NCBI GenBank assembly: GCA_027067955.1
Contig: JAMOUW010000045.1
Coordinates: 62,001 to 126,000, forward strand
Reading direction: 5' to 3'
DNA length: 64,000 nucleotides
Source: Thermaceae bacterium
Lineage (GTDB): Bacteria > Deinococcota > Deinococci > Deinococcales > Marinithermaceae
Within the stretch, counting starts at the first letter, position 1. The number at the start of each line of letters is the position of its first letter. Made by a program: the position numbers and the translations under genes. This document shows positions 1,511 through 61,537 of the stretch, in pieces. The notes beneath the pieces were generated by a model, which worked only from the letters and a program-made list of their open reading frames with translations, was not told the DNA's origin and ran no database searches.

Positions 1511-2485
1511 TCAGTCGCTGGTGGGAAAGAGCGCTACCGTTCTGGCGTCAGCTCCGACGCTGCGACCGTGCTCGGTGAGGTCCGGATCCAGCAGGTCGAT
1601 CGCCACCATCCGCCCCGGACCTACCAGGTAAACGAACGCGTCGGGGGTTACCGCGGCGTCTACGAAGCTGCCGCTGCGGGGATCTTGCATGTTCTTGTTA
1701 AGCCGCAGCACGTAGGCGTCCTTACCCACTATCAACCAGCCGTCGGGAAGCGCCTGGATCCAGCGCAGGCCCGAAAGGTCGGGCTCCGAACCGTGTTCCG
1801 AGGGCTCGTCCTTGCTTCCCGCCTCCCACAGGTAAAGGCTGGTGGAAGAACTGAAGCCCGCCGCGATGCCCAGCAATTCGCCATTCCAGTCCGCCGACAA
1901 TGCCTCCAGGTCTTCGGGCAGGGTTACCTCGTGCCTGATCGGGTCGTCTGGAGGGTTGGGATACACGAGGGTGAAATCCTGCATTCCCGGTTGCAGGCGC
2001 ACCACACGATCATCCGGACCCAGCACATACACCGTGCCTTCCGGGTCGCCTTCGCGATCTACGGGCTTAAGAGCGGGTGCTGAAGCGCGTACCGTCCATA
2101 GCCCCAAATCCCCGCAGTTCACCAGTAAAGCCTGTTCGCCGGTGACGAGTTTGCCTGCGGCGCATTCCCCGCCCAGCTCCAGCTCTAAAGCGGGAGCGGC
2201 GGCGTCGGGAGCATGATCCTCCCGGCTCCCCTGCAAGGGGTAGGCGCGCAGATGGCTGGTTGTCAGCACCCACAGCCGCTTCTCTCCCACCAGCCGCGCC
2301 AGGTCCACTACAGTAACCCCGATGTCCCACGAGCCCAGCGGGTCGGCCTCGCCGGTGCCCGCGGGGTAGAACACTACCTTCTGCCCCTCGCCGACAGCCA
2401 GCAGTATCTTGAGCGGGGGTTCCTGCGTACCGGTGCAGCCCGCCAGGAACAAAAGCGGCAAAATTATCATCGCCAAACGCCTCAT
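1511..2485 (-). CDS. Putative lipoprotein, unknown function
   Basis: MRRLAMIILPLLFLAGCTG signal with lipobox; start overlaps the stop of the upstream LptD-like gene. Confidence 0.8.
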   Translation of the reverse strand: MRRLAMIILPLLFLAGCTGTQEPPLKILLAVGEGQKVVFYPAGTGEADPLGSWDIGVTVVDLARLVGEKRLWVLTTSHLRAYPLQGSREDHAPDAAAPALELELGGECAAGKLVTGEQALLVNCGDLGLWTVRASAPALKPVDREGDPEGTVYVLGPDDRVVRLQPGMQDFTLVYPNPPDDPIRHEVTLPEDLEALSADWNGELLGIAAGFSSSTSLYLWEAGSKDEPSEHGSEPDLSGLRWIQALPDGWLIVGKDAYVLRLNKNMQDPRSGSFVDAAVTPDAFVYLVGPGRMVAIDLLDPDLTEHGRSVGADARTVALFPTSD

Positions 2486-12686: not shown

Positions 12687-13949
12687 ATGCGCCCCCTGGC
12701 TTTCGTGGTCATTCTCCTCGTCCTCGCGGTTTCCTGCTCCCCGCACAAGACCGCGCTGCCCGCCGTTTCCCGCCCGTTCCCCCAGCACGCAACTTATCCC
12801 GGACAGAAGGCAAGACCGGGCAGCTACAGCCAGTCACAGCTGGACGGGCATGTGCGCGCATTCTACCAGCGCTGGAAAGCCGACTACCTGCAGCCAGCCG
12901 GGCGCGACGCCGCTGGCCATCCCCTGTATCTGATCTCGCACTCCAGAAAGAAGCCGGGGGAAACCGTCAGCGAGGGGATGGGTTACGGAATGATCATCGC
13001 AGTCCACATGGCCGGGGCCGATCCGGCGGCGCGGGAGATATTCGATGGCCTCTACCGGTTCGCGCAAGCCCATCCGTCGGATATCGACCCCCGGTTGATG
13101 GGCTGGATCCAGCCGCCCGACGGCAATGGCAACGACTCGGCCTTCGATGGCGACGCCGACATCGCTTACGCCCTCTTGCTGGCCGACCGCCAGTGGGGCT
13201 CCGGCGGCGAGATAGACTACCTGGCCGCCGCCCGGGAAAGAATAGCCGCGATTGAAGAAAGCACCATCGGCCCCCACTCGCGCCTGCCCCTGCTGGGCGA
13301 CTGGGTGGAGCCGGCGGGCAACGAAGAAGACGAGCATAAGTACAACGAGTACACCCCCCGCCTCTCCGACTTCATGCCGGCTCACTTTCGCGTTTTCGCC
13401 CGCTACGGCAGCGCCGACCTCTGGAACGAGGTCGAAGAAGCGATGGAAACCGCGGTCCTTGGCCTGGAAGAAAACTACAGCCCCCGAACCGGCCTGATGC
13501 CCGACTTTGCCGAACCGGCCGGGTCCGGGCTTGGTTTTCCCCTCAAACCGGTCGGGCCCGATTTCCTCGAAGGCCCTCACGACGGCGACTACGACTACAA
13601 CGCCGGCCGCTACCCCTGGCGGGTGAGCACCGCGGTGCTGCTTTACGGCGACGGGTTTTGGCGGGAGCGGATGAACAAACTCAGCCACTGGGTCGAACGG
13701 GCCACCGGCGGCGACCCGCAAAAGCTAAACGCCGGTTATCACCTCGACGGTACACCCACCAAGGGGCAGAACTACTTCACCACCTTCTTCGCCGCCCCGC
13801 TGGCGACCGCCGCCATGACCCAGCCCAACCAGCAGGCCTGGCTCGACGCCCTCTACCAGGCCATCCACGACCGCCACGAAGACTACTACGAAGACTCGGT
13901 GACGCTGCTCAACCTGCTGTTGCTGAGCAACAACTACTGGGCTCCCTGA
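12687..13949 (+). CDS. Glycosyl hydrolase family 8 lipoprotein
   Basis: SVSCSP lipobox-like N-term; GH8-like motif DSAFDGDADIAYALLLADRQWG; EGMGYGMIIA. Confidence 0.8.
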   Translation: MRPLAFVVILLVLAVSCSPHKTALPAVSRPFPQHATYPGQKARPGSYSQSQLDGHVRAFYQRWKADYLQPAGRDAAGHPLYLISHSRKKPGETVSEGMGYGMIIAVHMAGADPAAREIFDGLYRFAQAHPSDIDPRLMGWIQPPDGNGNDSAFDGDADIAYALLLADRQWGSGGEIDYLAAARERIAAIEESTIGPHSRLPLLGDWVEPAGNEEDEHKYNEYTPRLSDFMPAHFRVFARYGSADLWNEVEEAMETAVLGLEENYSPRTGLMPDFAEPAGSGLGFPLKPVGPDFLEGPHDGDYDYNAGRYPWRVSTAVLLYGDGFWRERMNKLSHWVERATGGDPQKLNAGYHLDGTPTKGQNYFTTFFAAPLATAAMTQPNQQAWLDALYQAIHDRHEDYYEDSVTLLNLLLLSNNYWAP

Positions 13950-36171: not shown

Positions 36172-36190
36172 TTGTGACGCACTTGTGACG
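36172..36190 (+). promoter_or_regulatory. TTGTGACG tandem repeat (11-bp period), copy 1
   Basis: TTGTGACG-CAC-TTGTGACG. Confidence 0.8.
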
Positions 36191-36226
36191 CGGACCCGCT
36201 ACCAATGTTTATCGGAGGCACCCGTA

Positions 36227-36454: not shown

Positions 36455-37780
36455 ATGATCAGAAACATAAATTCAACCGCCTTACTGGTTACGGCGCTTG
36501 GGCTCCTGTGGCTGGCGGGGTGCAGCCAACCCCCGCAGGGAACCGAAGTGACGGTTCGCCTGTCGAGCCCCTGGGGGGTGCCGGCAACGGCAACGGTCGA
36601 CTACCAGGTGGGCGACGGCGAGTGGAAGCTGGCGACGCAAAAAGACTACGGCGTCTACGGCTTTACCGTCCCTCCGGGGGAGGTGCGCTACGGGGTGGCC
36701 GTCAACTGTATTCCCGTTGGCTTCGGGTTGGGGACTCTCGGCTGGGCCAACGTCTACCAGCTCACCCTCGACGATACGAAGGAACTGCAGGTGGCCTGCC
36801 TCAACCTCAGTGACCTGAGCACGACCGAGGTCAAGGTCAAAGCCCGCGCCGGAGGCGGGGACACCGGCTATGACCGGGCCTGGTACTACAGCGAACTGGA
36901 CGACGGCCGGAAGACCTTCCCCAACAACGCCACCCTGCTAAGCAAGGCGGAAGCGAACCGCGACGTTCTAATAGTGGCGTACGCCAGCGGCTCCAGCAAA
37001 TACAACCCGGGGCTCATCCGTCGTATCAAGTTTCTGCACAACCTCGACGCCTCCAGTACCCCTGTAGCACCCCTCGACGTAGAGCTGACCGCCGCGGATC
37101 AACCCACCACCCAGACCGTAGGCGCCTTCAGCAAACCCGGCTGGAGTGCCGCCGCCTCCTTTGGAGTCGGATTCGTTTCTTCTCAGGGACTGACCGTTCC
37201 CTTCACTGCAAGCGCCCCGGACGAGAACCCCGCCCTGGGTAGCGGCGATGAGGCAGGGGGCAGCTACTACAAAATTCCGAACACCCGCCCCGGAGACGTC
37301 TACTATGCCGAAGCCTCCGCCTGGGACGCCGCCCGAAACCACCTGGTGCATTTCTCCCAGGTGCTCGACTACGACGGTCCCCAGCTGAACATCGAGTTGC
37401 CCGCCCGAAAGTTCGATCCCGCCGTTAGCGCCGGTGCGCTGCCGGTTTTCACGGGGCTGGAATACAGCGACCCCGATCTGAAGGGCTACGCCTTTTCCAT
37501 CAACTTCAGCGGCTTCTGGGAGATGATAGTCGTTAGCAAGGCATGGCTGGATGCAAAAACGAGTTACGCTGTCCCTGACCTGAGCTCCGCTCCCGATTTC
37601 CGGGGGACGCGGCCGCTCAAGGGAGAAGAGCTGCGCTGGCGGGCGCTTGCGGTCATGGCCAACCATGAACTCGGGGAAATACTCACCGGCGACCCCCTGC
37701 CTCTCCCCAACCCGGTGCCGCGAACGCCCGGCTTGTGGATGAAGCTGGCCGTCAAACAGGGCAAGTTTACCGTGCCCTAA
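36455..37780 (+). CDS. Secreted lipoprotein, unknown function
   Basis: MIRNINSTALLVTALGLLWLAGCSQPP lipobox; SD GGAGG. Confidence 0.8.
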   Translation: MIRNINSTALLVTALGLLWLAGCSQPPQGTEVTVRLSSPWGVPATATVDYQVGDGEWKLATQKDYGVYGFTVPPGEVRYGVAVNCIPVGFGLGTLGWANVYQLTLDDTKELQVACLNLSDLSTTEVKVKARAGGGDTGYDRAWYYSELDDGRKTFPNNATLLSKAEANRDVLIVAYASGSSKYNPGLIRRIKFLHNLDASSTPVAPLDVELTAADQPTTQTVGAFSKPGWSAAASFGVGFVSSQGLTVPFTASAPDENPALGSGDEAGGSYYKIPNTRPGDVYYAEASAWDAARNHLVHFSQVLDYDGPQLNIELPARKFDPAVSAGALPVFTGLEYSDPDLKGYAFSINFSGFWEMIVVSKAWLDAKTSYAVPDLSSAPDFRGTRPLKGEELRWRALAVMANHELGEILTGDPLPLPNPVPRTPGLWMKLAVKQGKFTVP

Positions 37781-57644: not shown

Positions 57645-57663
57645 TTGTGACGGGGTTGTGACG
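57645..57663 (+). promoter_or_regulatory. TTGTGACG tandem repeat (11-bp period), copy 2
   Basis: TTGTGACG-GGG-TTGTGACG. Confidence 0.8.
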
Positions 57664-57694
57664 CGACAGCAGCATCATGAATACGGAGGTCAAA

Positions 57695-58660
57695 ATGCAC
57701 AATCCCAGACTGCTAAACCCGGTATGGGTAGCGTTGCTGCTCATGTTCCCGGGGGCGGGCTGCTCTCCGCCGCCGAAACCCGACACAACCCCACCCAGGG
57801 TACTCGCCACCGTGCCCGCAGACGGACAGCGCGGCGTGCTGCGGGACGCGCAGCTCGTGGTGCGCTTCAGCGAGCCCATGGACCCCGACTGCAGCGAGGC
57901 CGCGTACGGCTCGAGCAGCGCCGGGCTGCGGCCGAACGAGGTCAGCTTCCACTGGGACGATCCCGCCACCATGCGCATCATCCCCGGTGATTATCTGACC
58001 TACAGCCCGGACGCCAACGACAAAACATACACCTTCGTCATCAAAGAAACGGCCTGCGACGAAGCCGGAAATACCATGGCCTCTTCACACACCACCCGCT
58101 TCTACGTCCTGCGGAAACTCGCGGGGGTGATTAAAAGCCAGGGAGCGCTCGACGGCTACGTTTTTAAAGCGGGCCGCATAGACACCGGCGGGCGCGATCT
58201 GGGTGCAGGAGACGGGCCGAATGGCGAGTGCGCCCGGGCATTCCTCTCCTTCGACCTCTCCGAACTGAACCCCGACCCGGTCGAGGTTCGAAGCGCACGG
58301 CTACTCTTCAAGGTCCGCCACATCACGGGCAACCCCGCCGCCGACCTGGGAGCGCTGCTGGTGGAACACGTCCACTATGGTCCGCAACTTACCTCCCAGG
58401 CGTTCAATCTCGGGACGCTCTCTCCCCAACAACCCTGCTCCCTTTCAAACCTGACCGGCCCCTGGCTGTCTTGCTGGAAAGGCGTGGAAGTGCAGGACGA
58501 CGTGGCGCACTGGTTAGAGCGCCGGGGCATGGTTCAATTCCGGTTGCGCTTTAGTCGCGATACCGATGGCGACGCCGCCGAAGACTCGGCTATGTTCTAC
58601 TCGGGCGACGCCGCCGATTCCGAGCGGCCGTTTCTGGAGGTGGTGTATTATGCACCCTGA
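57695..58660 (+). CDS. Secreted lipoprotein with Big/Ig-like N-terminal domain
   Basis: Lipobox PGAGC; DTTPPRVLATVPADGQRGVLRDAQLVVRFSEPMD; SD GGAGG. Confidence 0.8.
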   Translation: MHNPRLLNPVWVALLLMFPGAGCSPPPKPDTTPPRVLATVPADGQRGVLRDAQLVVRFSEPMDPDCSEAAYGSSSAGLRPNEVSFHWDDPATMRIIPGDYLTYSPDANDKTYTFVIKETACDEAGNTMASSHTTRFYVLRKLAGVIKSQGALDGYVFKAGRIDTGGRDLGAGDGPNGECARAFLSFDLSELNPDPVEVRSARLLFKVRHITGNPAADLGALLVEHVHYGPQLTSQAFNLGTLSPQQPCSLSNLTGPWLSCWKGVEVQDDVAHWLERRGMVQFRLRFSRDTDGDAAEDSAMFYSGDAADSERPFLEVVYYAP

Positions 58661-60836: not shown

Positions 60837-61295
60837 TCAGCGAAGCGTCAAGCCCACTCTGAAGCCAAGGAATGGCTCGGTCGTCAGGGGAATGAAGATT
60901 ATCCGCTGTCCCAGCTGCAACTCCGCAAAAATACCTGCGCTTTTCATGTCGGCGAAAAAGGCCTCAAGCCCCAGCAACGCGTGCCCGTTAACCTCGGGGT
61001 TAGCCCGCAACAAACTCCCGCTTGCACCCGCGCCCGCATAGTAGGTCAGGTCGGCGGTTTTGCTATCGGAATATACGGTTCCAGAAGCCAGGATCAGGTC
61101 CAGTGAAACAGCGACCGAGTAGCGCCTCTGCTCGCCCCCCTCGGGCGCCAGCCCCACGCTCACGCGCCAGCCATCGGGGGTAACGAAGTGGATCCCGAAA
61201 ACTTCCGGCCAGCCGGCGTACAGGCCTGCTCCCCCGCGCGCCGCGGCGGAGCCCAGCAAAACGACAACCCCCAAGAATACGGCAACCCACTTCAT
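60837..61295 (-). CDS. Hypothetical secreted/outer-membrane protein
   Basis: Signal MKWVAVFLGVVVLLGSAAA; beta-rich YSVAVSLDLILASGTVY...LGFRVGLTLR. Confidence 0.65.
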   Translation of the reverse strand: MKWVAVFLGVVVLLGSAAARGGAGLYAGWPEVFGIHFVTPDGWRVSVGLAPEGGEQRRYSVAVSLDLILASGTVYSDSKTADLTYYAGAGASGSLLRANPEVNGHALLGLEAFFADMKSAGIFAELQLGQRIIFIPLTTEPFLGFRVGLTLR

Positions 61296-61339: not shown

Positions 61340-61358
61340 TTGTGACGCCTTTGTGACG
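61340..61358 (+). promoter_or_regulatory. TTGTGACG tandem repeat (11-bp period), copy 3
   Basis: TTGTGACG-CCT-TTGTGACG. Confidence 0.8.
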
Positions 61359-61393
61359 CTGGCTTAAATACCATGCAATGGGAGGTGAAAACC

Positions 61394-61537
61394 ATGCGCA
61401 GGCTGCTGTTACTGCTGGCGCTGTTGATGGCGCTCGTGGCCTGCGGGGGTGCAACCACTTCCGGCTGTCCTAATCCCGCCAAATTCGACAATCCCAAATG
61501 CGCCTTCGACAACCCGGCCACGCTGTTCGGCCCTTAG
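61394..61537 (+). CDS. Small lipoprotein (47 aa)
   Basis: Below the ORF-track cutoff. SD GGAGGTG; MRRLLLLLALLMALVACGGATTSGCPNPAKFDNPKCAFDNPATLFGP, lipobox LVAC. Confidence 0.75.
   Translation: MRRLLLLLALLMALVACGGATTSGCPNPAKFDNPKCAFDNPATLFGP

Follow-up and report, generated by a model that had tools for sequence, protein, structure and literature searches.

Introduction

Pho boxes, the sites of PhoB/OmpR regulators, are 11-bp direct repeats that lie near the -10 element and are recognized by an OmpR-type winged helix. The operators of SARP regulators are direct repeats as well, with a period of 11 or 22 bp. Most of what is known of SARPs concerns the activation of antibiotic clusters in Streptomyces; in the thermophile analyzed here, a member of the family seems to control a dispersed surface-lipoprotein regulon. 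In the cryo-EM structure of AfsR, two SARP protomers are placed side by side on 11-bp repeats spanning positions -40 to -30 and -29 to -19, and the protein contacts the first 8 bp of each repeat but not the last 3 (PMC10936776). AfsR engages region 4 of the sigma factor instead of the normal -35 recognition; in SARP operators, the 3' repeat is ∼8 bp from the -10 element and the box overlaps the -35 region (PMC10936776).

Three copies of a direct-repeat box in the window

The window, which is the whole stretch of 64,000 nucleotides analyzed, belongs to genome G000 (1.94 Mb, 78% complete). For comparison, we searched 112 genomes of the phylum, including the six genomes of group g1, whose genus we took as Oceanithermus, and those of the sister genus g2. 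The first-pass annotation had listed three exact tandem pairs of the octamer TTGTGACG on the plus strand; all three were confirmed, with the same positions and the same spacers (Table 1). All of them are intergenic. When up to three mismatches were allowed, the window yielded the same three boxes and nothing more, whereas shuffled sequences gave 0.32 on average and none of them reached three.

Table 1. Boxes, candidate -10 elements and genes in the window, together with the linked regulator locus of the same genome
Feature	Location	Strand	Details
SARP-type box copy 1	36172..36190	+	TTGTGACG-CAC-TTGTGACG, exact match
SARP-type box copy 2	57645..57663	+	TTGTGACG-GGG-TTGTGACG, exact match
SARP-type box copy 3	61340..61358	+	TTGTGACG-CCT-TTGTGACG, exact match
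Candidate -10, TACCAA, imperfect	36200..36205	+	9 nt past box 1; in line with the -10 column of the 50-site alignment
Candidate -10, CATCAT, imperfect	57673..57678	+	9 nt past box 2; fits the -10 column
Candidate -10, TACCAT	61369..61374	+	10 nt past box 3; fits the -10 column
Short ORF, 70 aa	36227..36439	+	36 nt after box 1 (usual distance)
Lipoprotein, 441 aa	36455..37780	+	starts 264 nt after box 1
Lipoprotein with Big_5 Ig-like domain, 321 aa	57695..58660	+	31 nt after box 2
Tiny lipoprotein, 47 aa	61394..61537	+	35 nt after box 3
Exported-looking protein, 169 aa	61572..62081	+	3' of the tiny lipoprotein
SARP gene, own genome	G000:C79:26195-29419	-	found in BTAD census
Box at the 3' end of the SARP gene	G000:C79:26176-26194	-	exact pair

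It had also been proposed that each box precedes a lipoprotein or a small gene. This holds for the boxes at 57645 and 61340, but not in the same way for the box at 36172, where the lipoprotein is distant and the nearest ORF is a short one. That ORF (36227) lacks a lipobox, and none of the loci searched contains a relative; it could be a leader, or a gene in decay. The lipoprotein at 36455 is homologous to several lipoproteins located directly behind boxes in other genomes. The lipoprotein at 57695 shares ∼60% identity with relatives behind boxes in G002 and G003. The tiny lipoprotein at 61394 has relatives behind boxes in G001 and G002, and in G064 after the SARP gene and a box with TAACG half-sites; its pairing with the 169-aa protein is kept in G001 and G002 and partly in G064. 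Not every lipoprotein gene of the window carries a box: those at 1511-2485 (minus) and 12687-13949 (plus) lack one, and the element thus marks only part of the lipoproteins.

On the minus strand, divergent from box 3, one 152-aa exported protein is encoded at 60837-61295. Its place next to this box is conserved in G001 and G002; in Meiothermus-like genomes, a protein resembling it occurs after TAACG boxes (L236, L261 and L275).

Distribution and promoter anatomy of the box

G000 contains 10 exact pairs, seven forward and three reverse. The single octamer occurs 30 times in this genome, with 20 occurrences within pairs and 10 unpaired, compared to 22 occurrences of the reversed control octamer; because the octamers are mostly paired and the unpaired ones are fewer than the control, TTGTGACG is used as a pair. 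Among the 112 phylum genomes, exact pairs were found 46 times in the six g1 genomes, once in G006 (g2) and never in the other 105, and the reversed control pair was found in none. One-mismatch matches in G017 and G029 were set aside, as we estimated that ∼4 would be expected by chance over 61 genomes. Tabulation of the genes downstream of the genome-wide matches showed that lipoproteins dominate. Instead of being placed at random and unconserved, the motif is kept across the genus in front of lipoproteins. The TTGTGACG pair is a real promoter element, almost confined to Oceanithermus.

To describe the box, 50 g1 sites were aligned. All sites have the 8+3+8 layout of a direct repeat with an 11-bp period; the octamer bases are almost invariant and the three spacer bases are variable. 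One pyrimidine precedes the first octamer in 47 of the 50 sites. A TAnnnT sequence starts 9 or 10 nt past the second octamer in 33 of the 50 sites (0.48 expected). If TAnnnT starting 9 nt past the box is placed at -12 to -7, the octamers occupy -40 to -33 and -29 to -22. At the 50 sites, no -35 element is visible at the normal spacing, the best match to TTGACA being at most 3/6; this is as expected for activator dependence. The start codons mostly lie 31-37 nt past the box and have a GGAGG-like site ahead of them.

In G003 (L066:3630-3659), the box is preceded at one period by a third, imperfect repeat unit (TGGTGGCG), a layout also seen in three-repeat SARP operators.

Lipoproteins are enriched behind the boxes

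Lipoproteins were called with a heuristic lipobox caller. Among the callable genes directly behind boxes, 32 out of 40 encode lipoproteins; for the remaining genes of these loci, the figure is 17 of 496 (odds ratio 113, p ∼1e-31). The box-linked lipoproteins include FG-GAP-repeat, Ig-like (Big_5), beta-propeller (DUF5122) and beta-helix-like proteins, and several have no Pfam match. Taken together, the distribution, the anatomy and this enrichment support the earlier description of the motif as a conserved direct-repeat regulatory site, with repeats one helical turn apart, that marks a lipoprotein regulon.

A large AfsR/SARP-type gene ends within the box

As found in the BTAD census, each of the six g1 genomes has one gene for a ∼1,080-aa AfsR/SARP-type protein (putative HTH, then BTAD-AAA-TPR) that ends in the box; in G001, the gene is at G001:C2:811603-814839. 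TTG TGA within the first octamer of the box supplies the gene's final sense codon and its stop codon, at the same position in 6/6 genomes. Scanning of the genome contigs with the SARP returned one locus only. The protein contains a BTAD domain (PF03704, 6.5e-17), and the SARP part is followed by nucleotide-binding (AAA_16, 1.8e-16) and TPR (TPR_12, 5.5e-18) domains. In Pfam, it matches no receiver domain (Response_reg), and its N-terminal HTH is not matched by Trans_reg_C. The SARP-domain profile, however, matched EmbR (2FEZ, 7e-13) and AfsR (8HVR, 5e-11; also 8K60) over nearly the full length, covering both HTH and BTAD. The AlphaFold model of the N-terminus, built from a single sequence, has a poor HTH; with this low-confidence model as query, Foldseek ranked AfsR and EmbR first. 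In our reading of the alignment, the base-contacting R92 of AfsR corresponds to one invariant Arg of this SARP family, and T88 to one invariant Gln.

In the recognition helix, g1 has ARHRLRQELYRL where the others have RRNLRQ. As a determinant of the half-site, this difference is a lead only; since g2 has both GTGACG and GTAACG, it does not track the half-site cleanly.

The box is very probably the operator of this large activator, which is encoded elsewhere in the genome, outside the window. The octamer-N3 units are located at the same positions as the AfsR repeats, and on this ground we propose a SARP dimer on the box and activator-dependent promoters. Each octamer would be occupied by one of two adjoining SARP protomers, immediately 5' of a -10 element that lacks a -35 counterpart; the pair would recruit RNA polymerase with the housekeeping sigma factor to the surface-lipoprotein promoters. 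The box in the SARP stop codon would drive a ∼61-aa protein and, in some species, the lipoprotein that follows. Direct binding of the SARP to the box, and activation rather than repression, are what the sequences lead us to infer; control of the SARP is presumably exerted via its ATPase and TPR part.

The small protein behind the regulator

Directly behind the SARP gene and its box, all six g1 genomes have one ORF of ∼61 aa, predicted to be leaderless; in G000 and G005, the next gene is a lipoprotein. The ORF is also present behind the corresponding box in four g2 genomes, and Meiothermus-like genomes as well as G029 encode relatives of the protein after TAACG boxes. The protein has no Pfam or NCBIfam match. 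AlphaFold suggested a beta-beta-beta-alpha fold (pLDDT 77), and the model has no significant match in the PDB. As a guess, the protein could be a feedback partner of the SARP.

Regulator and half-sites co-diverge beyond the genus

Regulator and site co-occur and co-diverge across genera. Full-length orthologues of the SARP were found in g2, in G018, which belongs to another family, and in g12, g23 and g24, three groups that we read as Meiothermus-like; the identities are 43% for g2, 40% for G018 and 35-37% for the last three. Many orthologue genes of g2, G018 and the Meiothermus-like groups have 11-bp direct repeats and a -10 element at or shortly after their 3' end. The half-sites at these genes are GTAACG or GTGACG in g2 and TATAACG-like in g12 and g24. 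The g2 sites are typically CGGTGACG-N3-CGGTGACG and mostly precede the same kinds of lipoprotein.

Counts of the sites follow the regulator. In g2, the four genomes with an orthologue have 9 (G006), 7 (G009), 9 (G010) and 6 (G011) GTRACG-N5-GTRACG sites, as raw counts that ignore kinship; in the four family genomes where no full-length orthologue was detected, the numbers are 1 (G012), 0 (G008), 1 (G013) and 1 (G007). Some of the genomes compared here and in g12 are incomplete. Similarly, 14 genomes of g12 with an orthologue have 4-14 TAACG-N6-TAACG-N9/10-TAnnnT sites each (raw counts, kinship ignored), and four g12 genomes without an orthologue have one TAACG site each, in all cases before the same aminotransferase-like gene. 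The genes downstream of TAACG boxes in Meiothermus-like genomes are not lipoproteins alone.

In Meiothermus-like genomes, TAACG-N6-TAACG precedes a DegT-like aminotransferase gene even in those that lack a SARP orthologue (L231, L233, L234, L238, L240, L260 and L276); probably another regulator uses this site. G093 (family f3) has 13 TAACG-N6-TAACG-N9/10-TAnnnT sites without a close SARP orthologue, and a related system may be present there.

Alternative explanations for the box

Several copies of the box are present in each genome, as would also be seen for a dispersed repeat (mobile-element ends or recent duplications) with no regulatory role. Such an origin has next to no probability, because the recurrence is limited to the octamers, the -10 element and the ribosome-binding site while flanks and spacers differ, the copies share orientation and distance to the start codons, and the reversed control is zero. 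The same comparison of flanks and spacers bears out the view of the first-pass annotation that invariant octamers with varying spacers reflect conserved structure, not duplication. Direct repeats serve other regulator families too, and the box could be the operator for a repressor or for another direct-repeat binder such as LytTR, not for a SARP activator. We regard this as highly improbable, given that the promoters lack a -35 element, as activator dependence predicts, and that linkage and co-divergence favor the SARP. LytTR proteins were not found in box-bearing G000, G001 and G003 (two of these incomplete), and LytTR was rejected as the binder by this distribution.

An OmpR/PhoB-family response regulator had been proposed as the binder in the first-pass annotation, and 11-bp direct repeats replacing the -35 element do fit Pho boxes. 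In a census and tree of OmpR-domain proteins covering 14 family genomes, only one of nine clades, RR2 (229 aa, beside a TPR-repeat histidine kinase), was present in all six g1 genomes and in 0/8 others, and RR2 was at first our favored candidate. It was demoted after the BTAD census and the comparison with g2: no box adjoins RR2, physical linkage is with the SARP gene instead, and g2, which has no RR2, nevertheless possesses this lipoprotein regulon and a related box. Binding by RR2 is therefore very unlikely. As the DNA-binding domain of SARPs is of the OmpR type, the structural intuition behind the proposal was nevertheless close. Against the assignment of all boxes to a single SARP, the genomes contain further BTAD proteins that could share them, and two of these adjoin one-mismatch boxes. 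The boxes might thus serve several SARP paralogues, for example a second BTAD protein acting on the tiny-lipoprotein promoter in G001 and G002, where its genes are divergent from one-mismatch boxes (G001:C2:1984737 and G002:C9:108025); Meiothermus-like genomes likewise encode several BTAD proteins, and the genes behind their TAACG boxes are varied. We consider such sharing rather unlikely, since the second BTAD protein is found in G001 and G002 only, whereas all six genomes have exact boxes, and the SARP alone was seen in G004 and G005. A single large SARP remains our preferred regulator.

Two of the loci compared have features of their own. The second large BTAD regulator, divergent from a one-mismatch tiny-lipoprotein box, is located in L060 (G001:C2:1977000-1992000) and L053 (G002:C9:101000-113206), and is possibly a paralogous controller of that promoter. 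RR2 belongs to one genus-specific signalling cluster beside a LolA-like gene (L160:2957-9640 in G001; L131 and L132 in G000). With domain names as read from the sequences, the cluster comprises RR1, a histidine kinase (periplasmic-type part and TPR), RR2, and DUF4388-like, MglA-like GTPase, Roadblock-like and protoglobin-like proteins. The RR2 cluster is present twice in G000, at ∼96% identity (G000:C42:23397-24071 and G000:C57:2323-2994), which may be due to strain mixing in the metagenome assembly rather than to true duplication.

Discussion

Both the site and the regulator are of a known kind, namely a SARP operator and a large SARP. In the freely accessible papers searched, we found no SARP lipoprotein regulon in this lineage, no case of this regulator family switching on surface lipoproteins, no stop-codon operator, no co-diverging half-sites and no description of the small protein family. 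Tentatively, and with the odds somewhat against it, the system may be a SARP switch dedicated to remodelling of the lipoprotein surface in Thermales-type bacteria, in which the stop-codon operator drives one ∼60-aa partner that feeds back, and regulator and operator have co-diverged from a common ancestor.

The genomes provide a natural series, in which one orthologous activator is paired with at least three half-sites (TTGTGACG, CGGTGACG and TATAACG); SARP specificity is therefore directly dissectable. The regulon also offers an initial way into the function of dozens of surface lipoproteins that lack annotation, and of the small protein family behind the activator, which is predicted to answer to it.

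Among the described systems, a close parallel is AfsR of Streptomyces coelicolor (PDB 8HVR and 8K60) on the afs box at the promoter of afsS. AfsR has the same BTAD, nucleotide-binding and TPR parts, and an HTH whose counterpart here is putative; its box has the same geometry, 8 bp plus 3 free bp, twice, from -40 and -29, with no good -35 element; and, like here, the target promoter is close to the regulator gene. Different from AfsR, which serves antibiotic control, the present system belongs to a Deinococcota thermophile and covers a dispersed lipoprotein regulon, its half-site is TTGTGACG with diverged versions, and its operator lies inside the stop codon of the regulator with the small protein directly behind. 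PimR and other SARP-LAL operators of Streptomyces share the 11-bp period (heptamers with 4-bp spacers) and a large SARP with an ATP-binding part; PimR differs in its single target gene, in a main operator that does not overlap the -35 region and in the half-site CGGCAAG (PMC5930380). EmbR of Mycobacterium tuberculosis (PDB 2FEZ) is the best structural relative by profile (E 7e-13) and shares BTAD and probably the HTH, but it has one FHA domain in place of the ATPase and TPR parts. Compared to the PhoB/OmpR systems, no response regulator tracks the box across genera, and the linked regulator has no receiver domain.
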